Part shown: in pieces, positions 2,496 through 23,789 of the stretch
How positions within the stretch are numbered: the first letter of the stretch is position 1
How the letters are laid out: each line of letters begins with the position of its first letter
Virus record (IMG/VR): IMGVR_UViG_3300027842_000057
Coordinates: 1-34,132 of that record
Origin: a virus
DNA length: 34,132 nucleotides
Strand: one strand, 5' to 3'
The notes under the pieces: generated by a model
Databases searched by the model: none
What the model was told of the DNA's origin: nothing
What the model saw: only the letters and a program-made list of their open reading frames with translations
Translations under genes and position numbers: made by a program

Positions 2496-3047
2496 ATGAC
2501 CGCGCCTCAATGGCACATTGCCTTGACCGAGCCTCGTCGCGAAAGCCTAGCCGCGGCTCATCTTCGCGATCGTGGAATCGAGCCCTATTTGCCGACCCTC
2601 ACGATAGAGGTCGCTCATGGTGGCCATGGTGCACGTCGGGCGGTGCAGCGTCCGATGTTTCCGGGTTATTTGCCGGTCAGGTTCTCGACCGACATGCCAA
2701 AATGGCAGCGGCTCTTTACGACACCGGGAATCCGCCCTGTCCACAGCCTTTTGCGGACGAACGGGCATTATGCGATATTGCCCGAGGCAGCCATTGCGGC
2801 GATCGTAGAAACGGAAAATCGTTTGCGTCATCAACGTGCTATGCCTGCCAAGCGATTAGGATTTCAGGTCGGCCAAACGGTGCAATTCAAGTCGTGGCCT
2901 GATGGCGGGGCATTCTCTGGGTTCTTTGCGGAGGTCGAGCGGCTGGACGATAGCGGCCGAATCAGCCTACTTGTGTCCATCTTCGGTCGGGTTTCCAGGG
3001 CTATCGTTGAATCCGACCTCGTTGCATCCCAGACCGCTACGATGTAG
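2496..3047 (+). CDS. NusG/RfaH-like transcription antitermination protein
   Basis: This 183-residue protein has the two-domain plan of NusG. The N-terminal domain (about 4-115) begins QWHIALTEPRRE and contains the signature MFPGYLPVRF (54-63). The C-terminal KOW-type barrel (about 123-176) has GFQVGQTVQFKSWP and a final strand RVSRAIVESDLV. NusG proteins ride on RNA polymerase, and specialised paralogues such as RfaH suppress termination at chosen operons. It sits four bases after the initiator and immediately before a leader with an intrinsic terminator and the packaging operon. This is the place where lambdoid phages keep Q, so a late-gene switch is a reasonable inference. Confidence 0.8.
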   Translation: MTAPQWHIALTEPRRESLAAAHLRDRGIEPYLPTLTIEVAHGGHGARRAVQRPMFPGYLPVRFSTDMPKWQRLFTTPGIRPVHSLLRTNGHYAILPEAAIAAIVETENRLRHQRAMPAKRLGFQVGQTVQFKSWPDGGAFSGFFAEVERLDDSGRISLLVSIFGRVSRAIVESDLVASQTATM

Positions 3048-6337: not shown

Positions 6338-7504
6338 TTGGTGAGGAAGACGCGAGGCGCTGCTATTCTGGCGTTCTTGGTTACGGCGGCCTATTGGCCC
6401 GGCACCTATGCACCGGCTCTCGTTCCGAAATGGGCTGTCCTCTTAGTTGGATTGCCCCTCGTTGTTCCCCACGGGGAATCGTCGGCGACAGCGCTGCAGA
6501 AAGCGTTTCTTGTCTTTATCGCCTATGCCGTGCTGTCGCTCTTATGGGCACCATTCCGGCTCGATGGCATCTATGAACTCGGGATCTTTGCGCTGCTCGC
6601 TGGAAGCTTTCTGCTTGGCAATTGTCTTGAGCGCTGCGATCTGGTATTTATTGGCGCCGGTTGTGGATTGGTTCCTTCGCTGATCGTCGGGATGATGCAA
6701 TGGTTCGGAGCGAGCCCGGTTCTGGAGTTGACGCCGAATCCGGCGGGGCTGTTCGTCAATGCGAACTTGATGGGCGAGGCTTCCGCACTTGTGATTGCGG
6801 GCTTGCTTGGGAGTGGGAATGGTCTGTGGGCCTGCCTGTTGGCCGTTGTGCCTGTCACTTGCTTGGCGTTGAGCCATCATCGGACCTCGATAATCGCTTT
6901 GGCGATTGCGGGTATGATCTTCGCGATGCAGGCTTCAAAGAAACGCCGATTGTGGATTATCGGGCTTATGGTCTTTCTATCGATCCTCATTGGCTTGATG
7001 GGATATGGGACATCGCTACCGCAATCGTTTGAAGAGCGCATTCAAATCTGGCACGGAACCCTCGCGGGGCTGACCTTGCTCGGGCACGGGGCGGGAAGCT
7101 TCCGGGGCCTCATCTGGCTCTACTTTCTGTCAAAGTCCGAGGGCGGCTTGGATTATGCCCATAACGACCTGTTGCAGCTCGGATTCGAATATGGCGCGGC
7201 GGCGCTTATCCCAGCGGCTTGCTTTGCCATTCTGGCGCTCCGCAGCGTCTCGCCCATGCGTTATGTGTTGATCGTGTTCGGGATACAGTCCTCGCTTGAA
7301 TTCCCTCTGTATATGCCGGTTACGGGGTTTCTGGCGGCATTCGTTGCGGGGCATTGCGCTCGGGAGTGGCCTTCTTACGGTTGGCGCGATGTGCTCCGCG
7401 GAATGGCTCTATTCGACCGGCTTGCAACAAAACGATCTCGACCGGATGGAATTGGCGGCAAAGGTCTTTCCGTTCGATGCCCGATATCGCAGAGGTCCGG
7501 CTGA
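6338..7504 (+). CDS. O-antigen ligase/polymerase-like membrane protein (Wzy/WaaL type)
   Basis: The start is a TTG at 6338 touching the previous stop, with GTG 6341 as an alternative. The product is a polytopic membrane protein with about ten hydrophobic spans. Between spans it carries hallmarks of the O-antigen ligase family: an arginine after a span (SHHRTS, R182), GHGAGSF (249-255) and, in the large periplasmic loop, YAHNDLLQLGFEYG (273-286) with its conserved histidine. Such enzymes join or polymerise lipid-linked sugar chains at the periplasmic face. In phages they are linked to serotype conversion. The last 45 or so residues look like a shadow of the overlapping gene, so the reading frame may be broken near 7350. 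Confidence 0.65.
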   Translation: MVRKTRGAAILAFLVTAAYWPGTYAPALVPKWAVLLVGLPLVVPHGESSATALQKAFLVFIAYAVLSLLWAPFRLDGIYELGIFALLAGSFLLGNCLERCDLVFIGAGCGLVPSLIVGMMQWFGASPVLELTPNPAGLFVNANLMGEASALVIAGLLGSGNGLWACLLAVVPVTCLALSHHRTSIIALAIAGMIFAMQASKKRRLWIIGLMVFLSILIGLMGYGTSLPQSFEERIQIWHGTLAGLTLLGHGAGSFRGLIWLYFLSKSEGGLDYAHNDLLQLGFEYGAAALIPAACFAILALRSVSPMRYVLIVFGIQSSLEFPLYMPVTGFLAAFVAGHCAREWPSYGWRDVLRGMALFDRLATKRSRPDGIGGKGLSVRCPISQRSG

Positions 7505-9556: not shown

Positions 9557-11722
9557 ATGGATTACGGCGCAGCCATCGACGATCAAGCCCAACTCCCCGG
9601 CGATCCTGGCATCGTCCAGGAGGCCACCTATTGGTGGAAGGCCGTCAAGGATTGGCAGGGCACCGAAGACGAGCGCACGCGCGAGGATATCAAGTTCGCC
9701 AATGGCGATGCGCGTAATGCCTGGCAGTGGCCGACCAAGATGTATGCGGCGCGCACCGGCGGCGATGTCGAGTTGCCCTGCCTGACCATCAATCAGACGC
9801 GCGTTTACAACGATAACATCATCAATGCGATCTCGAAAAACGCGATCGGTGTCAAGATCAGGCCCACGGCTGGAAAGGCGAGCTACCAATCCGCCAAGGT
9901 CATGATGAATATTGTTCGCCGGATTCAGAACATATCGGGATTTTCCCGCGTTAAACGCAAAATCTGCGAGCATCAAGTCGATGGTGGTATCGGCTATTGC
10001 ATCATTGAGACCAAATGGGTGTCGGAACGCTCATTCGATCAGGACATTTTTTTGAGGGCCGCCGATGATTCGACCGCCGTCTATCTCGATCCGTGGCATC
10101 CCGATGATCCGGACTTTGGGTTTGTTTTCGAACGCAAGTCGCGCCGCAAGTTCAATCGCGAACATCCGAAATGGAAGGATAGGGTTGGCAAGTCGCCGAT
10201 CAATAGCGGGCTTGAATCCTGGCTTTCCGACAAAGAAATCATGCTCGCCAAGTATTTCCGCAAGAAGCAGAAAGCGGACAGGCTCGTAAGCTACACGCGG
10301 CCCGGTGAAGATGCAGTCGAAAAGCTGGCTTCCGAGATCAGGGACGAAAGTGGTCCCGAATTGCTCGATCAGCTCTTGGATGACATCAAGCAGGGCCGCA
10401 TCGATGGCCGCACGCGATCGGTCAAGAACAATCAAGTCGAGTGGTTCCTGATCGCGGGCGATACGATCATCGATCGCGGCGATTGGGCCGGCAAATATGT
10501 GCCGATCATCCGCTGTGTCGGGCGTGAAACCGTCATCGACGGCGCGCTCGACCGCAAAGGCAATACGCGTGCGCAGATCGATGCGCAACGCATGCTCAAT
10601 TACAACGCTTCCTCATCGGTCCAATCGGTCGCGACGCAGACCAAGACGCAATGGCTTGCTCCGGACAGGGCGACCGCAGGCCAAGAACAGTGGAAAACCG
10701 CAAACACGGATAATTTTGCGGTCTTGATGTGGAACGATATCGACGAAGAACAAGCCGACGCGGCGTTAGCGAAGATTCCGCCGCCGCAACGCATCGAGCC
10801 GCCCAAACCATCGGCCGCCTTCACGCAGGGCATGCAAGACGCGGAGCGGCACCTGATGATGGTCAATGGCCAGTTTCAGGCCAATCCATCGGATGCGCAA
10901 GGCGAGTCGCCATTCCCGCAGTCAGGACGCGCGATCAATGAGAGGAAAGAAGCCGGCGTGCTTGCAACCTATCATTTCCCCGAGCACATGGCGGATATGG
11001 AGCAAATGATCGGGGTGCAATTGCTCGACCTCATTCCGAAAATCTATGATACACAGCGCGCGCTTCATGTGCAGGACGAGAAGGGCGAAAAGCATTGGAT
11101 CCGTATCAACCCGAACCAAGTCGATGCGGTGCAAGAATTGGAGCATGTCAAGGACGACGAGGAGGCCGTAAGACTCGCGTTCAATCCTGGCGTGGGCGAA
11201 TATGAATGCGTCTCCGATCCGGGGCCTGATTACGCGACCCAGCGTCAAGAGCAATGGAACGCGATGACGCAACTCCTCGCGGCCAACAAGGAACTGGCGG
11301 CGATCGGTATGGACTTGCTCCTGAAGGCCGGAGATTTCCCCGGCGCGGACGAACTGTCCGAGCGCTACTTGAAAGAGATCAAGGCGCAAAAGCCCTATCT
11401 GTTCGACCAGAATCTCGATCCGGCCATGACGGCATTGCAACAGCAGAATCAACGCCTAGTGGCGCTCAATGCCGAAATGATGACTAAGCTCGCCGATATG
11501 AACCTCAAGCTGAGAGGTCGCGACGAGCGCCGCGACATCGAAGCCCACAAGGCCGATACCGATCGCATGAAGGTGCAATTGGAATTCCTGTTGAAAACCA
11601 TGTTGACGCCAGTGCAGAAAGCGCAGATGGAGCATGAATTGGAGCAGGGACTCCATCAGCACGTCTTCGACATGATTCAGCAGGCGAATGCGCCGCGCGT
11701 CACGAATGGGGCGGCCGAATGA
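9557..11722 (+). CDS. Portal protein (P22 gp1-like)
   Basis: This 721-residue protein matches the length of P22 gp1 (725) and its features: an N-terminal helical region with YWWKAVKDWQGTEDERTRED, and LPCLTINQTRVYNDNIINAI, which is typical of the P22-type portal. It also has DPDFGFVFERKSRRKF, a long crown and wing, and a C-terminal coiled-coil barrel from about residue 625 (QQQNQRLVALNAEMMTKLAD). Twelve copies form the ring through which DNA enters and leaves the head. The long C-terminal helix fits the barrel of P22. It begins three bases after the terminase stop and overlaps the next gene by ATGA. Confidence 0.9.
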   Translation: MDYGAAIDDQAQLPGDPGIVQEATYWWKAVKDWQGTEDERTREDIKFANGDARNAWQWPTKMYAARTGGDVELPCLTINQTRVYNDNIINAISKNAIGVKIRPTAGKASYQSAKVMMNIVRRIQNISGFSRVKRKICEHQVDGGIGYCIIETKWVSERSFDQDIFLRAADDSTAVYLDPWHPDDPDFGFVFERKSRRKFNREHPKWKDRVGKSPINSGLESWLSDKEIMLAKYFRKKQKADRLVSYTRPGEDAVEKLASEIRDESGPELLDQLLDDIKQGRIDGRTRSVKNNQVEWFLIAGDTIIDRGDWAGKYVPIIRCVGRETVIDGALDRKGNTRAQIDAQRMLNYNASSSVQSVATQTKTQWLAPDRATAGQEQWKTANTDNFAVLMWNDIDEEQADAALAKIPPPQRIEPPKPSAAFTQGMQDAERHLMMVNGQFQANPSDAQGESPFPQSGRAINERKEAGVLATYHFPEHMADMEQMIGVQLLDLIPKIYDTQRALHVQDEKGEKHWIRINPNQVDAVQELEHVKDDEEAVRLAFNPGVGEYECVSDPGPDYATQRQEQWNAMTQLLAANKELAAIGMDLLLKAGDFPGADELSERYLKEIKAQKPYLFDQNLDPAMTALQQQNQRLVALNAEMMTKLADMNLKLRGRDERRDIEAHKADTDRMKVQLEFLLKTMLTPVQKAQMEHELEQGLHQHVFDMIQQANAPRVTNGAAE

Positions 11723-13863: not shown

Positions 13864-15123
13864 ATGGCAAACAATATTCTGACGCCGAGCATGATCACTC
13901 GGTATGCGATCCGTATGTTTCTGAACACCAACTATTTCCTGCAGAACATCTCACGGCAGTTCGAAAGTCAGTTCGGCATCGAGGGTGCGCGCATTGGCGC
14001 TCAATTGCGCGTCCGCTACCCCAACCAGTACACGGTCACGGACGGGCCGGGCATCTCAGTGCAGGACACGACCGAGCAGCAATTCCTGCTTACGGTCGCG
14101 ACGCAGCGCCATGTCGATGTGGCATTCACATCAGCGGAAACGACGCTCGATATCGACGACTATATGGAGCGCATCGTGTTGCCGCGCGTCAATGCGCTCG
14201 CCGGCAATGTCGCCTACCAGGTCATGGTGAACACTGCGAACTCGGTGCGCAACATCGTCGCCAACGTCGACGCCAACAATAACATCTTGCCCCTTACTGA
14301 TACGCCAGTCGCGCTCGCCCGCGCGATCCTCGAAGAAAATTCGGCGCCCAATTTCGGCGAGATGGGCATTCGCAAGGTGGCTCTGGCGCCACGGAGCGAC
14401 GCCCGCATGCAGCAGGCCTTGCGCGGCCTGCTGAACCCGGTCGAGGACATCTCGTCTCAATACAAGACCGGCATGATGTATCAGGCGTTTGGTCTGCGCT
14501 TCTTCGAAGATCAGACCGTCGTCAACCATACGACCGGATCATTGGCGACCGCGACCGTCAATGGCGCCAACCAGACCGGGCAAACCATTACGGTCAACGC
14601 CCTCGGCGGCACCATCAATGCGGGCGATGTGCTCACGATTGCCGGCGTCAATGCTGTCAACCGCAACACCTATCAGAGCCTCGGCACGGTTGCGCAGTTT
14701 GTTGCAACGGCCGCCGCCGCGGTGGGGGCGACCTCGATATCGATTTTCCCGCCGATCGTGCCGCCGGCCTCGGCTGTTCCTTACGCGGGCCTGCCCTACA
14801 CGCCACAGCAATATATGACAGTAACGGCGTCGCCCGCCAATAACGCGGTCATCACGCCGTTTGCCAACGCGAGCGTCACCTATCGAGAAAATCTCTGTTA
14901 CGCGCCCGATGGGATCACGCTCGTTGTCGCGCCGCTGTGGATCCCGCCCAACGAGAAGGGAGTCATTGCGGCAGCGCGGCACAACTATGATACCCTGTCG
15001 ATGCGCTCGCTCGTCTGCTATGAGCCGACGACGGATCAACCGATCGACCGCTTGGATATCCTGTTCGGTTCGGGTGTGCCCAGACCGGAATGGATCGTGC
15101 AGGTCGCGGACGCGACGCCATAA
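13864..15123 (+). CDS. Major capsid protein (P22 coat-like, HK97 fold)
   Basis: This 419-residue protein agrees with P22 gp5 (430) in length and layout. It has a helical N-terminal arm with ILTPSMITRYAIRMFLNTNY, then the strand region RVRYPNQYTVTDG. The spine helix is near DYMERIVLPRVNALAGNVAY. An inserted beta domain (about 225-330) contains NAGDVLTIAGVNAVNR and a threonine-rich stretch, like the I-domain that stabilises P22 coat. The end is RPEWIVQVADATP. It forms the icosahedral shell. The start has GGAG eleven bases upstream and a long structured leader, and the gene is followed by small virion genes. Confidence 0.85.
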   Translation: MANNILTPSMITRYAIRMFLNTNYFLQNISRQFESQFGIEGARIGAQLRVRYPNQYTVTDGPGISVQDTTEQQFLLTVATQRHVDVAFTSAETTLDIDDYMERIVLPRVNALAGNVAYQVMVNTANSVRNIVANVDANNNILPLTDTPVALARAILEENSAPNFGEMGIRKVALAPRSDARMQQALRGLLNPVEDISSQYKTGMMYQAFGLRFFEDQTVVNHTTGSLATATVNGANQTGQTITVNALGGTINAGDVLTIAGVNAVNRNTYQSLGTVAQFVATAAAAVGATSISIFPPIVPPASAVPYAGLPYTPQQYMTVTASPANNAVITPFANASVTYRENLCYAPDGITLVVAPLWIPPNEKGVIAAARHNYDTLSMRSLVCYEPTTDQPIDRLDILFGSGVPRPEWIVQVADATP

Positions 15124-16582: not shown

Positions 16583-16765
16583 ATGCCGAAGGATAAAGGC
16601 GGTCACGGTTCGGATAAGCGTATGGCGGGGCTCGCGGGGCTCAGTCGCCTCGCCGGTCAAATGCGGCAATCGCCTGCCACGAAAAATGCAGAAAGAAAAC
16701 TGCGACAATTGCGAGTGCAAGAGGCGCGTCGCCAAGCAGTTAAAGAATCTCAAACAAGAAAATGA
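16583..16765 (+). CDS. Small basic protein (60 aa)
   Basis: The frame begins one base after the previous stop and overlaps the next gene by ATGA. The peptide is very rich in lysine and arginine (AERKLRQLRVQEARRQAVKE), with a glycine-rich start (MPKDKGGHGSDKRMAGLAGL). It is probably a helical nucleic-acid binding or head-internal peptide. No family is recognised. Confidence 0.55.
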   Translation: MPKDKGGHGSDKRMAGLAGLSRLAGQMRQSPATKNAERKLRQLRVQEARRQAVKESQTRK

Positions 16766-17085
16766 TAATGTGGACACTCGCCGCGCTCCAAGATGAAATC
16801 CGCCGCCGCTATGGGCCATCGATCATGGTGTCCTATGACGGCGGCCAGTGTCGTCTGACGCATGGCAATGGCCGCACAGCGCGGTTCGATCTGCCGGATG
16901 GCGATCTATCCGCAGATGCCCTCCATTCCCGCATTCTAGGCCCGCTGATCGCTTCTTGGGGCATAACGCCAAACCCTCCCCTGGGCCGGCAATCCCGGCC
17001 CAGGCGCCTGCGCCCAAGCCACCTGACCCGCTCACCGCAAATATCCAATCGGCACAAGCTCAAGTGTCTGCCGCGCACGGCTTGA
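16762..17085 (+). CDS. Zero-frame short product of the frameshift gene (107 aa)
   Basis: Without the shift, translation from ATG 16762 runs to 17085. Residues 1-72 are shared with the long form. The remaining 35 (from PLGRQSRPRRLRPSHL on) are basic and look like a by-product of the overlapping frame. The ATG overlaps the previous stop (ATGA). Making a short and a long form with a common N-terminus is how tail chaperones of long-tailed phages work; nothing comparable is known to me in P22. Confidence 0.55.
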   Translation: MIMWTLAALQDEIRRRYGPSIMVSYDGGQCRLTHGNGRTARFDLPDGDLSADALHSRILGPLIASWGITPNPPLGRQSRPRRLRPSHLTRSPQISNRHKLKCLPRTA

Positions 17086-17396
17086 TCGAGATCGGGAAAA
17101 GGATGGCATTCAAGCATCTGCGGAGCTTACCCGGCATCGATCAGTCGATCATGACCGAGCTGGACAATCGCGCTGCAATCCTCAAACGGCGCTTGCGCGA
17201 GCAGCATCATCGAGCGTTGAAGATCATCGTCGCGCGTCATAGGCAGGCCGATGCCGACGATGAGGCGTTGTACGCCACCAAGCAATTCAACGATCAGATG
17301 GAGGCTGTCCGAGGCGACAACAGCCCCCCGGAGGACGAAAAGATGGCGGCAGAAATCGAGGCGCTTCAAGCCGAACTCGATCGGCTTGGCAAATAA
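16762..17396 (+). CDS. Predicted -1 frameshift fusion protein (211 aa)
   Basis: Coding character switches frames exactly at a slippery site. The zero frame from ATG 16762 looks real up to about 16977 (TLAALQDEIRRRYGPSIMVS, GRTARFDLPDGDLSAD). After that the frame one base back looks real: a proline/alanine linker (GPAIPAQAPAPKPPDPL), then GLIEIGKRMAFKHLRSLPG and a long charged helical part to 17396. The heptamer A AAC CCT and a perfect nine-pair hairpin lie at the junction. Slippage joins 72 residues to 139. If no shift occurs, the downstream part would need its own start, for example ATG 17104. The family is unknown; it lies between head genes and the gp4-like gene. Confidence 0.6.
16971..17003 (+). 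promoter_or_regulatory. Programmed -1 ribosomal frameshift signal
   Basis: The in-frame heptamer A AAC CCT (16971-16977) has the X XXY YYZ form. After a three-base spacer come CTGGGCCGG (16981-16989), the loop CAATC and CCGGCCCAG (16995-17003), a perfect nine-pair GC-rich stem. The spacer is shorter than the usual five to nine bases, but partial melting of the stem base would lengthen it. Confidence 0.65.
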
Positions 17397-17412: not shown

Positions 17413-18174
17413 ATGCCCCCGCCCGCCGAACCTGTCCTCCCGATCGACACCTGTGCGGCGCTTCTAGCGAACATGCTGGTCGATGCCGGCATTGTCGGCA
17501 TTGATGAGGATATCGAACAGCCAGTGCTTAACCGGGCATTCACGCAGATCAACTGGTTGCTGGCCGAATGGGCGCGCAGGCGCTGGCTCTGCTATCGGCT
17601 GCAAGATTATGCGGTGCTCTCGACCGGCGCACAGAGCTATACCGTCGGCCTCAAGCAGAATATCGACATCAATCCGCGACCGGATCGGATCGAGTTCGCT
17701 TATCTGCGCTTTGTGAATCAATCGGCTGGAACGCTTCCGGTCGATATTCCGCTCGACATTATCCAGAGCCAGGAGGATTATTCGCGGATTACCGTGAAGA
17801 CAGTCGGAACGCTGCCCTGGCGGGTGTTCTATGATCCGGTATGGCCGGTTGGCTTGCTCAAGCCGTGGCCGGTGCCGCAGGCCAACATTTATGAGGTGCA
17901 TGTCGGCTTCAAGGTCGTGCTGCCGCGGTTTTCCTCGCTCAATCAACCCATCACGTTTCCGCCGGAATACGAGGCGGCGCTGAACTGGTGCGGTGCACGG
18001 CGATTGCGGGAAAGCTATCAGCTCGAGCCGCGGCCGGTGCTTGATTCGCTCGCCCGGCAATCGCTCAATGCGATGCGGCTCGCGAATCAGGCGATGCCGA
18101 CGTTGCGAATGCCGGCATTTCTGCGCAATCGCCAACGCGCATACGATTACCGAGGGGATTCGGACGGGTTCTGA
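17413..18174 (+). CDS. Head-to-tail adaptor, P22 gp4-like tail accessory factor
   Basis: This 253-residue protein follows the plan of P22-type tail accessory proteins. A helical N-terminus (CAALLANMLVDAGIVGIDED) and AFTQINWLLAEWARRRWLCY lead into a beta region with TGAQSYTVG, DIPLDIIQSQEDYSRITVKT and WRVFYDPVWPVGLLKPWPVP. C-terminal helices follow. Such proteins plug into the portal ring after packaging. Its position just before the gp10-like gene matches P22. P22 gp4 is shorter (166) and also acts as a muramidase; I see no matching active site here. The last 45 bases region is duplicated at 18343-18387. Confidence 0.65.
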   Translation: MPPPAEPVLPIDTCAALLANMLVDAGIVGIDEDIEQPVLNRAFTQINWLLAEWARRRWLCYRLQDYAVLSTGAQSYTVGLKQNIDINPRPDRIEFAYLRFVNQSAGTLPVDIPLDIIQSQEDYSRITVKTVGTLPWRVFYDPVWPVGLLKPWPVPQANIYEVHVGFKVVLPRFSSLNQPITFPPEYEAALNWCGARRLRESYQLEPRPVLDSLARQSLNAMRLANQAMPTLRMPAFLRNRQRAYDYRGDSDGF

Positions 18175-18189
18175 ACAACGGAGATAACC
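18145..18189 (+). repeat. 45-bp direct repeat, copy 1 (end of the gp4-like gene)
   Basis: This copy spans the last codons and stop of the gp4-like gene plus the following ribosome site (GGAG). It recurs 198 bases later at 18343-18387 with a single difference (T18185 against C18383). Confidence 0.9.
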
Positions 18190-18190
18190 G

Positions 18191-18391
18191 ATGCCTGTGA
18201 CGCATTATCCGCGGCCGGGACTCACGACATTGTCGCTGCCACCCGTGCAAGGCATGGGGCGGTATCTCTATGCTGCCTCGAATGGCGCGCTCTATGCCGT
18301 CGTCGCCAATAATATCTATTACATCAATTCCGATTTCGTGTGGATTACCGAGGGGATTCGGACGGGTTCTGAACAACGGAGACAACCATGA
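18191..18391 (+). pseudogene. Fragment of a gp10-like gene (duplication remnant)
   Basis: The first 153 bases (18191-18343) match 18961-19113 inside the gp10-like gene with about eight differences, encoding the same MPVTHYPRPGLTTLS and YAASNGALYAVVANNIYYIN. The fragment lacks the first 38 residues and everything after the DFVW segment. It then runs out of frame through the second copy of the gp4 gene end, giving a 66-residue frame with a good ribosome site. It may be translated but is probably a recombination scar, not a working protein. Confidence 0.7.
18343..18387 (+). repeat. 45-bp direct repeat, copy 2
   Basis: This is the second copy of the gp4-gene end. It now follows the gp10-like fragment and supplies the GGAG ribosome site for the gene at 18388. 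With copy 1 it brackets the gp10-like fragment. Confidence 0.9.
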
Positions 18392-18846: not shown

Positions 18847-20349
18847 ATGGTCGCGCTGCCGCTCACCTCGGGGGCGTATAGTTCGCAGTCTTTGATCGCG
18901 GATGCGCAGCGCTCGATCAATCTGTACCCTGAGAAAAATCCCGAGAATACCCGGCCGCCGATGCCGGTCACCCATTATCCGCGGCCGGGACTCACGACAT
19001 TGTCGGCGCCACCCGTGCAAGGCATGGGGCGGTGTCTCTATGCTGCCTCGAATGGCGCGCTCTATGCCGTCGTTGCCAATAATATCTATTACATCAATTC
19101 CGATTTTGTGTGGACGCTGCTCGGTGTGCTTCAGACGCCAGGCAATACACCGGTCATTATGGCCGACAATGGCACGACGATTCTTGCAGTTGATGGCGAC
19201 CAGACTGCCGACCTGATTACGCTCGGGACGAATGCCTTTGCCTTTAACGGCGATCCCAATTTCCTTGGCGCTCGTGGTGTCGATTTTATCGATGGTTTTC
19301 TGGTAATGGATGTTGCCGGAACGAATAAATGGCAATCGACGCTCGCGGAATCGGTTACATTCAATCTGTTATATCAGGGCGTTAAAACTGCCTCACCCGA
19401 TCCGATTCAGCGCGTAATCTGTTGCGAGCGTCAGGTCTATCTTCTCGGGACTCGTAAAAGCGAGCCCTGGGTCAATGTCGGCGCCGTCCCGTTTCCGTTC
19501 AATATTCAGCCCGGCATGATCATCGAGCAAGGTTGCGCCGCGCCCTATTCGGCCTGCAAACAAGATACCAACGTCTATTGGCTCTCGCAGTCGCCGGAAG
19601 GTGCGCGGATGATCATGAAGGTGAATGCTCAAAATGTCGCAGAGCGCATCTCGACACACGCCATCGAAACCGAGTTTCTGAAATATCTACGCGTCGATGA
19701 TTGTTTGTCTGATACCTATCAGATATCGGGGCATAGTTTCATCCGTTTTCACTTTCCGTCCGCCGATAAAACCTGGGTTTATGATCAGGCAACCGGCCAG
19801 TGGTTCGAGGACAATTGGATCGATAACAATGGCGTGCTCCATCGTGCCCGCAATGCGTTCTCGGCCTATGCCTATGGGCTCAATCTCGGGCTCGATTGGG
19901 CAAATGGCGCGCTCTATCAGATCGACCAGCAGGCATTCACCGATGCTGGCCAGCCGATTGTGCACATTCGATCATTTCCGCACATCATCAATGAGTTGAA
20001 ATACGTCAACTATATGGGATTTGTCGCTGATTTCGAAACCGGAACGCTTGCCGGAAGCGATGAAACAACAAAGACCGTGAGCCCATGGTCGCCAGGATTC
20101 AGCAGCGGCTTTGGTCCACTGACAGTGGTCGATACGCCAACCCTGAATCTGCGTTATTCAAACGATGGCGGCTACACTTGGTCAAATAACCGACCTAAAA
20201 AAATGATGAGCGCCGGTCGCTATCGATCAATGATGCGGTGGCGCGGATTAGGCAAAGCGCGCGATCGAGTCTATGAACTCGGCTGGTCGGCGCCGATGAA
20301 GACGGCTCTCCAGGGTGCCTATTATGATGCGCAGCCGGGGGCTTCATGA
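18847..20349 (+). CDS. Packaged DNA stabilisation protein, P22 gp10-like tail hub
   Basis: This 500-residue protein fits P22 gp10 (472) in length and signature. The N-terminus has SGAYSSQSLIADAQRSINLY then PEKNPEN and YPRPGLTTL, a pattern typical of the family. A beta-propeller-like body follows (NGALYAVVANNIYYINSDF, GFLVMDVAGTNKWQST, RQVYLLGTRKSEPW, KTWVYDQATGQWFEDNW). In P22 it forms the hexameric hub beneath gp4 that closes the head and holds the tail needle and tailspikes. It begins right after the previous stop and overlaps the next gene by ATGA. Part of it is duplicated at 18191-18343. Confidence 0.8.
   Translation: MVALPLTSGAYSSQSLIADAQRSINLYPEKNPENTRPPMPVTHYPRPGLTTLSAPPVQGMGRCLYAASNGALYAVVANNIYYINSDFVWTLLGVLQTPGNTPVIMADNGTTILAVDGDQTADLITLGTNAFAFNGDPNFLGARGVDFIDGFLVMDVAGTNKWQSTLAESVTFNLLYQGVKTASPDPIQRVICCERQVYLLGTRKSEPWVNVGAVPFPFNIQPGMIIEQGCAAPYSACKQDTNVYWLSQSPEGARMIMKVNAQNVAERISTHAIETEFLKYLRVDDCLSDTYQISGHSFIRFHFPSADKTWVYDQATGQWFEDNWIDNNGVLHRARNAFSAYAYGLNLGLDWANGALYQIDQQAFTDAGQPIVHIRSFPHIINELKYVNYMGFVADFETGTLAGSDETTKTVSPWSPGFSSGFGPLTVVDTPTLNLRYSNDGGYTWSNNRPKKMMSAGRYRSMMRWRGLGKARDRVYELGWSAPMKTALQGAYYDAQPGAS
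18961..19113 (+). repeat. Source-like copy of the 153-bp gp10 segment
   Basis: This segment inside the intact gp10-like gene is about 95% identical to 18191-18343. The eight or so differences include one amino-acid change S-A-P against S-L-P and C against Y, so the two copies have diverged or came from related phages. Confidence 0.85.
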
Positions 20350-23028: not shown

Positions 23029-23241
23029 ATGATCCGGCGTCAGTTCTATGGCTGGTTTGACGCGCGCCGTCGTGATTTCAGGCTATCGCTGGCGCCGGCC
23101 GACGCTCCGGTGCGGCCATCGCTCGGATTTGCCACCAAGGCCGAGGCGATTGAGTTCGCGCAACGCAAGCGCGGTAGCATCATGTGGTGGCCAATCTTGA
23201 CGTATGACCAGGAAATGATCGGGCGGGAGATGCACGGATGA
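23029..23241 (+). CDS. Small hypothetical protein (70 aa)
   Basis: The ATG at 23029 lies one base after the previous stop; ATG 23020 in the same frame is an alternative. The product starts MIRRQFYGWFDARRRDFRLS and contains GFATKAEAIEFAQRKRGSIM, a compact beta-helix layout. Its last codons (M-H-G-stop) overlap the next ATG and are part of a duplicated 64-bp segment. Function unknown. Confidence 0.55.
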   Translation: MIRRQFYGWFDARRRDFRLSLAPADAPVRPSLGFATKAEAIEFAQRKRGSIMWWPILTYDQEMIGREMHG

Positions 23242-23294
23242 CTCCCCAAGAAGAATGGAACGCAAAATGGCTGATGTCTATAAGCGAGCTTGAG
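23231..23294 (+). repeat. 64-bp direct repeat, copy 1
   Basis: This copy covers the end of the 70-aa gene and the first 19 codons of the next. It recurs at 23495-23558, 264 bases (88 codons) later, with two differences. The copies bracket an inserted domain in the alpha-CTD-like gene. Confidence 0.9.
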
Positions 23295-23789
23295 TCAAAG
23301 GACGGGACCATGACCGAACTTAAGACCAGCGAATCCCTATTGGCGACCCTACAAAAGGCGTCAAAACGCGTGCTTACTGCCGAGGAACTCAAGAAGCAGC
23401 GCGTCTCCTTCATCATGGGCTCCCTCAAGGAGTCCAGCACAGTCACGCGCGCCCGCATCCAAGAAGTGCTCGCCCGACAGGAGGGGAACGGAGGTGCACG
23501 GATGACTCCCCAAGAAGAATGGGACGCAAAATGGCTGATGTCCATAAGCGAGCTTGAGATATCCATTAGAACTCGCAATTGCTTGCAATATGCAGATGGT
23601 AAATATTTCCATGCTATAAACAACATGTTGCAACTATTGACTACAGGCGAATGCGAGCTATTAAGAATCCCGAATTTTGGTCGTAAAAGTCTTTTAGATT
23701 TGAAAGAAGGTCTTGCAATGAAAGGTTTTTATTTAGGAATGAGCGTTCCGCCCAGGCCTATTGAGCATCATTTCATGGCAACGGGATAA
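23238..23789 (+). CDS. RNA polymerase alpha C-terminal domain-like protein
   Basis: Residues 103-172 of 183 resemble the alpha-CTD of RNA polymerase: ISELEISIRTRNCL, then CELLRIPNFGRKSLLDLKEG and MKGFYLGM. The residues that contact UP-element DNA in E. coli alpha (R265, N268, G296, K298, S299) correspond to R111, N114, G148, K150 and S151, all conserved. There is a loop about six residues longer between them. The N-terminal part holds the duplicated segment MTPQEEWNAKWLMSISELE and an inserted piece (TELKTSESLLATLQ to RIQEVLARQEG) like small phage proteins. The alpha-CTD stretch is clearly AT-richer than its neighbours. It may compete with or recruit host polymerase; that is inference. Confidence 0.75.
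   Translation: MTPQEEWNAKWLMSISELESKDGTMTELKTSESLLATLQKASKRVLTAEELKKQRVSFIMGSLKESSTVTRARIQEVLARQEGNGGARMTPQEEWDAKWLMSISELEISIRTRNCLQYADGKYFHAINNMLQLLTTGECELLRIPNFGRKSLLDLKEGLAMKGFYLGMSVPPRPIEHHFMATG
23495..23558 (+). repeat. 64-bp direct repeat, copy 2
   Basis: This copy is in frame inside the alpha-CTD-like gene and encodes ARMTPQEEWDAKWLMSISELE in part. It keeps the stop region of the upstream small gene as coding sequence. It probably marks the original start of the alpha-CTD gene before the insertion. Confidence 0.9.

Follow-up and report, generated by a model that had tools for sequence, protein, structure and literature searches.

We have found, in a small gene of a P22-type phage, a signal for programmed -1 ribosomal frameshifting that very probably yields two products, a short protein (A) and an extended form of it (A-B). 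The window analysed is the whole of an IMG/VR virus record (34,132 bases), which contains a P22-type module, and the features discussed here are collected in Table 1. A slippery heptamer in the zero frame of ORF A is followed by a GC-rich hairpin and by a long -1 frame that encodes the extension. The conservation of the heptamer, the codon that follows it and the core of the stem in a second, distantly similar phage (locus L010) supports the programmed signal that a sequence-only reading of this DNA had proposed.

Table 1. Features of the window near the candidate frameshift gene, and predicted slip sites of the same kind in other viral loci.
Feature	Position	Strand	Remarks
Portal gene	9557-11722		P22_portal match
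Coat gene	13864-15123		P22_CoatProtein match
289-aa ORF	ends 16581		
Small ORF	16583-16765		
ORF A, zero frame, 107 aa	16762-17085	+	nine-member family; conserved A domain ends at ca. 16968
Weak Shine-Dalgarno-like TTGGGGC, possible stimulator	16956-16962	+	8 nt 5' of heptamer
Slippery heptamer A AAC CCT, then CCC	16971-16977	+	zero frame of ORF A; identical in L010
-1 extension, 139 codons after the slip	16977-17396	+	proline/alanine-rich linker, then helical B; from frames and codon usage
Putative stimulatory hairpin, 10 bp, 5-nt loop	16980-17004	+	predicted fold; arms 16980-16989 / 16995-17004
Stem core GGGCCGG/CCGGCCC, common to L010	16983-16989 + 16995-17001	+	5 nt 3' of heptamer
In-frame ATG of B, possible separate start	17103-17105	+	weak Shine-Dalgarno match (-4.3 kcal/mol) immediately adjoining the ATG
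gp4-like tail accessory factor gene	17413-18174	+	relatives include a 'tail accessory factor'; used to find relatives
Head closure Hc3 gene	18847-20349		
AAACCCTCCC slip site, L149	474-480		
AAACCCTCCC slip site, L152	4339-4345		
AAACCCTCCC slip site, L051	2883-2889		
AAACCCTCCC slip site, L055	6770-6776		
AAACCCTCCC slip site, L200		minus	

Counted from the heptamer, the -1 frame has 141 codons before it meets its stop at 17394-17396, and a slip at the heptamer would give an A-B product of 211 aa. The lengths of the frames thus agree with the two forms of 107 and 211 aa predicted earlier, although the products may be of 105 and 209 aa, because the start of the homologues aligns with the second ATG of A, at 16768. 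With a codon usage model trained on the other genes of the phage we could confirm that coding character changes frame at the heptamer. The zero frame is favoured 5' of it and the -1 frame 3' of it, where the 41 codons up to the ATG at 17103 score +0.10 in the -1 frame vs. -0.38 in the zero frame; false frames have their 99th percentile at -0.06, which the former score exceeds. The structural models give a compact alpha-beta-beta-beta-alpha domain for A (pLDDT 84) and helices after the linker for B (pLDDT 80, from two sequences only); the first predicted helix of B spans residues 20-52, the ATG corresponding to residue 45. A fold search for A gave no match at E <= 0.001, a profile search against solved structures gave nothing convincing, and neither A nor B had a match in Pfam or PHROG. 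The A profile did show a weak, consistent match (ca. 1e-5, in a small database) to part of the P22-type coat proteins found in the relatives (coat genes of L002-L030; that of the window is at 13864-15123); A might be derived from a piece of coat protein, the match reflecting either kinship or a chance resemblance.

The heptamer belongs to the X_XXY_YYZ class, and the reading frame of ORF A confirms that it lies in the zero frame, where it had been placed before. The stem that follows had been described as nine perfect GC pairs (16981-17003); the predicted fold confirms it, but with ten pairs, and one of the nine is A-U. Its predicted stability is -22.2 kcal/mol, with a z of -2.6 against shuffled sequences. 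The short spacer and the unusual heptamer had been given as reasons for caution, and both have lost weight. If the full 10-bp stem is intact at the moment of the slip the spacer is of 2 nt only, which does count against frameshifting, but the 7-bp core conserved in L010 begins 5 nt past the heptamer, inside the usual distance of 5-9 nt (PMC5009743). As for the heptamer, besides its recurrence in tail-assembly-chaperone-like pairs (see below), all heptamers except three shifted in Escherichia coli when a strong stimulator was present, A_AAC_CCU not being among the three, and C_CCU is one of six shift-prone tetramers in that species (PMC4066793). On the other side, X=A with Z=C falls outside the most efficient E. 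coli motifs (PMC4066793).

Within the phage the combination is rare. In its 13 genes the XXXYYYZ pattern is found in the zero frame at 8 of 3816 codon positions, and the heptamer at 16971 is the only one of these that is paired with a long -1 ORF and a strong hairpin. A scan by ORF geometry, covering all ORFs of both strands, gave two further candidates that we rejected: at 1842 the hairpin is weak (-6.1) and the "zero frame" differs from that of the real gene, while the candidate on the minus strand runs against the genes identified in its region and belongs to an ORF that corresponds to no known gene. The Shine-Dalgarno-like motif 5' of the heptamer is weak in the window vs. L010, where a stronger one (TGGAGGC) is located 9 nt 5' of the heptamer. 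In L010 this motif falls within a possible 6-bp hairpin, GGAGGC-GAA-GCCTCC, just 5' of the heptamer, which is not conserved in the window.

No homologues of A and B were found in annotated phages, and direct protein searches with A or B in the viral contigs retrieved nothing, or only the L010 contig itself. Relatives were instead located through the gp4-like neighbour, first in 29 and then in 50 viral-contig loci (overlapping sets), plus one in a genome. Most of the gp4-like loci inspected were without A and had a protein of ca. 270 aa directly before gp4 instead. Two of the relatives (L002 and L014) carry in the head module, upstream of a gene of 264-293 aa, ORFs of 196 and 248 aa with an HNH-endonuclease-like motif recognised by eye. 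A is present in nine phages, the window included. In seven of them (L015, L016, L018, L028, L096, L123, and L142) it is a stand-alone protein of ca. 72-80 aa, mostly encoded directly before gp4 (downstream of it in L028), and only in the window and L010 does A continue into B. No further case of A with B appeared among A or gp4 relatives in about 1180 genomes.

The A proteins of the window and L010 are ca. 30-33% identical and appear as sisters with 95/96 support, which is consistent with a single gain of the B extension. At the end of A, in the same place in both phages, twelve bases (CCAAACCCTCCC) are identical, and so is the core of the stem, with a different loop. Immediately after CCAAACCCTCCC the zero frame of L010 stops at a TAG (..KPPNPP-TAG), and its -1 frame continues without a stop across a linker rich in proline to reach a charged stretch that forms a second ORF; the codon usage of this linker is ambiguous. 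An alignment of homologues had been suggested as a check on the signal, and L010, the one homologue that carries it, keeps the heptamer, the following codon and the stem core exactly, in a gene pair that as a whole is ca. 41% identical in DNA. In no other 22-nt window of the pair is conservation as high as in the signal (19/22), which also holds the longest run of identical bases (12). The similarity of the two B sequences, matched in score by 78 of 500 shuffles, lacks significance. Since the stand-alone A homologues end before the PNPP block, and have neither slip site nor B extension, the conservation of the signal is not accounted for by constraint on the A protein.

The slip site itself is not unusual, because five other viral loci (L051, L055, L149, L152, and L200) also have AAACCCTCCC in this register, each time with a -1 extension after it, in what look like tail assembly chaperone pairs. 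The usual place of such a pair is between the tail protein and the tape measure, and the pair of L055 sits between a 387-aa ORF and an ORF of >1523 aa. The pair of L051 resembles it; no annotated relatives of these two pairs were found, and we take both to be chaperones on the gene order of L055 and a motif of actinophage chaperones. The family phrog_2115, "tail protein", is matched by the zero-frame parts of L149 (E 9e-9) and L200 (E 3.5e-6), and phrog_19318 by the -1 parts of L152 (E 2.5e-8) and L200 (E 8e-18); L149 and L200 also have weak Phage_TAC matches, below the cut-offs of Pfam. Hairpins are predicted 3' of all five sites, at variable distance and with variable strength. Other AAACCCTCCC matches that passed the ORF filter (L042, L076, L160, L164, L171, L195, L198, L204, and L210) were set aside, as no credible protein pair was evident. 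Taken as predictions, these chaperone-like pairs would use the heptamer in the same way in unrelated genes, of unrelated phages. In every case CCC follows the heptamer and the zero frame reads Asn-Pro-Pro, and slow formation of the Pro-Pro bond may add a pause at the slip site.

Frameshifting is not the only way in which two such frames could be arranged. A and B might be two separate genes with an incidental overlap, B being translated from its ATG at 17103 (put at 17104 by mistake in the sequence-only reading) or from a GTG at 17064, by reinitiation after the stop of A at 17085. The ATG is indeed 18 nt past this stop and preceded by GGGAAAAGG, and the B of L010 also has an in-frame ATG. However, the Shine-Dalgarno-like bases touch the ATG in the window, and in L010 the ATG comes ca. 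100 nt past the stop of A with a weak Shine-Dalgarno match (-2.8). Besides, the linker 5' of ATG 17103 already shows the codon usage of the -1 frame, the first predicted helix of B begins upstream of this ATG, and the conserved heptamer and stem would be left unexplained, so that we consider separate genes unlikely.

Even less credit can be given to a one-base mutation or sequencing error that split a continuous A-B gene, for which the C-rich runs around the junction would provide an opportunity. It is improbable to a high degree because L010 keeps the two-frame signal, with the same frame relation at the same site and a stop in the zero frame, and because A ends on its own in seven relatives; a homologue with both parts in one uninterrupted frame, the finding that had been named as fatal to frameshifting, did not appear among the relatives. 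Slippage at base runs can also alter the frame, and transcriptional slippage could in principle make the -1 product, but the runs here (three A and at most four C) are shorter than those at which it usually takes place, and a slip of the ribosome agrees better with the codon register and the conserved hairpin. We regard slippage of the polymerase as the most remote of these explanations.

By programmed -1 frameshifting, most ribosomes would translate A and end at 17085. A minority, stalled by the GC hairpin while AAC occupies the P site and CCU the A site, would undergo a tandem slip of one base backwards (AAC to AAA, CCU to CCC) and go on in the -1 frame to 17396, producing A-linker-B. The outcome would be a small alpha/beta protein A together with a probably scarcer A-B that bears a helical arm; that slipping takes place in the cell, and in what product ratio, is what we infer. 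The position of the gene suggests that A and A-B may act together in head completion or at the head-tail junction, A being a protein of these structures in two forms, or an assembly factor. The earlier designation as a virion protein goes further than gene position, the evidence for it, can support.

Two-product -1 frameshifting is best known from the tail assembly chaperones of long-tailed phages. The likeness to the lambda-type pair G/GT consists in the two products and in the -1 slip near the end of a small ORF, and the chaperone-like pairs described above share also the heptamer in register and a predicted downstream hairpin. However, the gene of the window is not between a major tail protein and a tape measure: its phage is of the P22 type, its neighbours are the coat gene on one side and the gp4-like gene on the other, and no ORF there has the size of a tape measure. 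Pfam and PHROG relate neither A nor B to chaperone families. Neither its family nor its place among the genes makes it a tail assembly chaperone, though it may work in a similar two-form way. More specifically, in some short-tailed P22-type phages A and A-B could function as G and GT do, but for head completion or a short tail, with the frameshift setting the ratio, a parallel that we put forward tentatively and with considerable doubt. Another precedent is gene 10 of T7 (10A/10B), a frameshifted head protein of a short-tailed phage in which the -1 slip likewise adds a C-terminal part (PMC5009743). There it is the major capsid protein that is extended, at a G_GU-type site with a distant stimulator, whereas here A is a small protein separate from the coat, with a canonical XXXYYYZ heptamer and an adjacent hairpin. 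The stand-alone A proteins of the related phages share the homologous domain and, mostly, the location directly before gp4, but have no slip site or B extension. By position alone, A can also be likened to orf69 of P22, a small ORF between genes 5 and 4, which is a single ORF. When the phiAX1 and PAE2 loci, which have small ORFs in that place, were compared with the A profile, no match reached significance.

A host among the Alphaproteobacteria is suggested by the genome collection, where the gp4-like gene has a single match, in a Beijerinckiaceae genome bin. Downstream, the end of the gp4-like gene (45 nt; region from 18145) is found again at 18343-18387 (98%), and a second copy of 157 nt from the Hc3 gene (18958-19114) occupies 18188-18344 (95%), where it precedes a 152-aa ORF. 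This mosaic duplication could be either a recombination scar or an artefact of the assembly. Elsewhere in the genome there are genes for a NusG-like protein (2496-3047; Pfam E 3.8e-9) and for an RNA polymerase alpha C-terminal domain protein (23238-23789; Pfam E 1.4e-11) with an internal repeat of MTPQEEWxAKWLMSISELE, the two together suggesting that the phage modifies the transcription of its host. An O-antigen-ligase-like protein (6338-7504; Wzy_C, E 4e-10) is possibly surface-modifying.

Programmed frameshifting in tailed phages is found mostly in tail chaperones and in a few capsid or tail proteins. In the literature searched we found no matching report of AAACCCT or of podovirus frameshifting, and no earlier report for this gene. 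This is a new case of a known mechanism, an increment and not a new mechanism. With a conserved example from a small gene in the head region of P22-type phages, one more gene family would join the list, and the phages with stand-alone A, next to those with A plus A-B, offer a natural comparison. Along the same lines, AAACCCTCCC followed by a hairpin would make a recurring slip signal for annotation to screen for.
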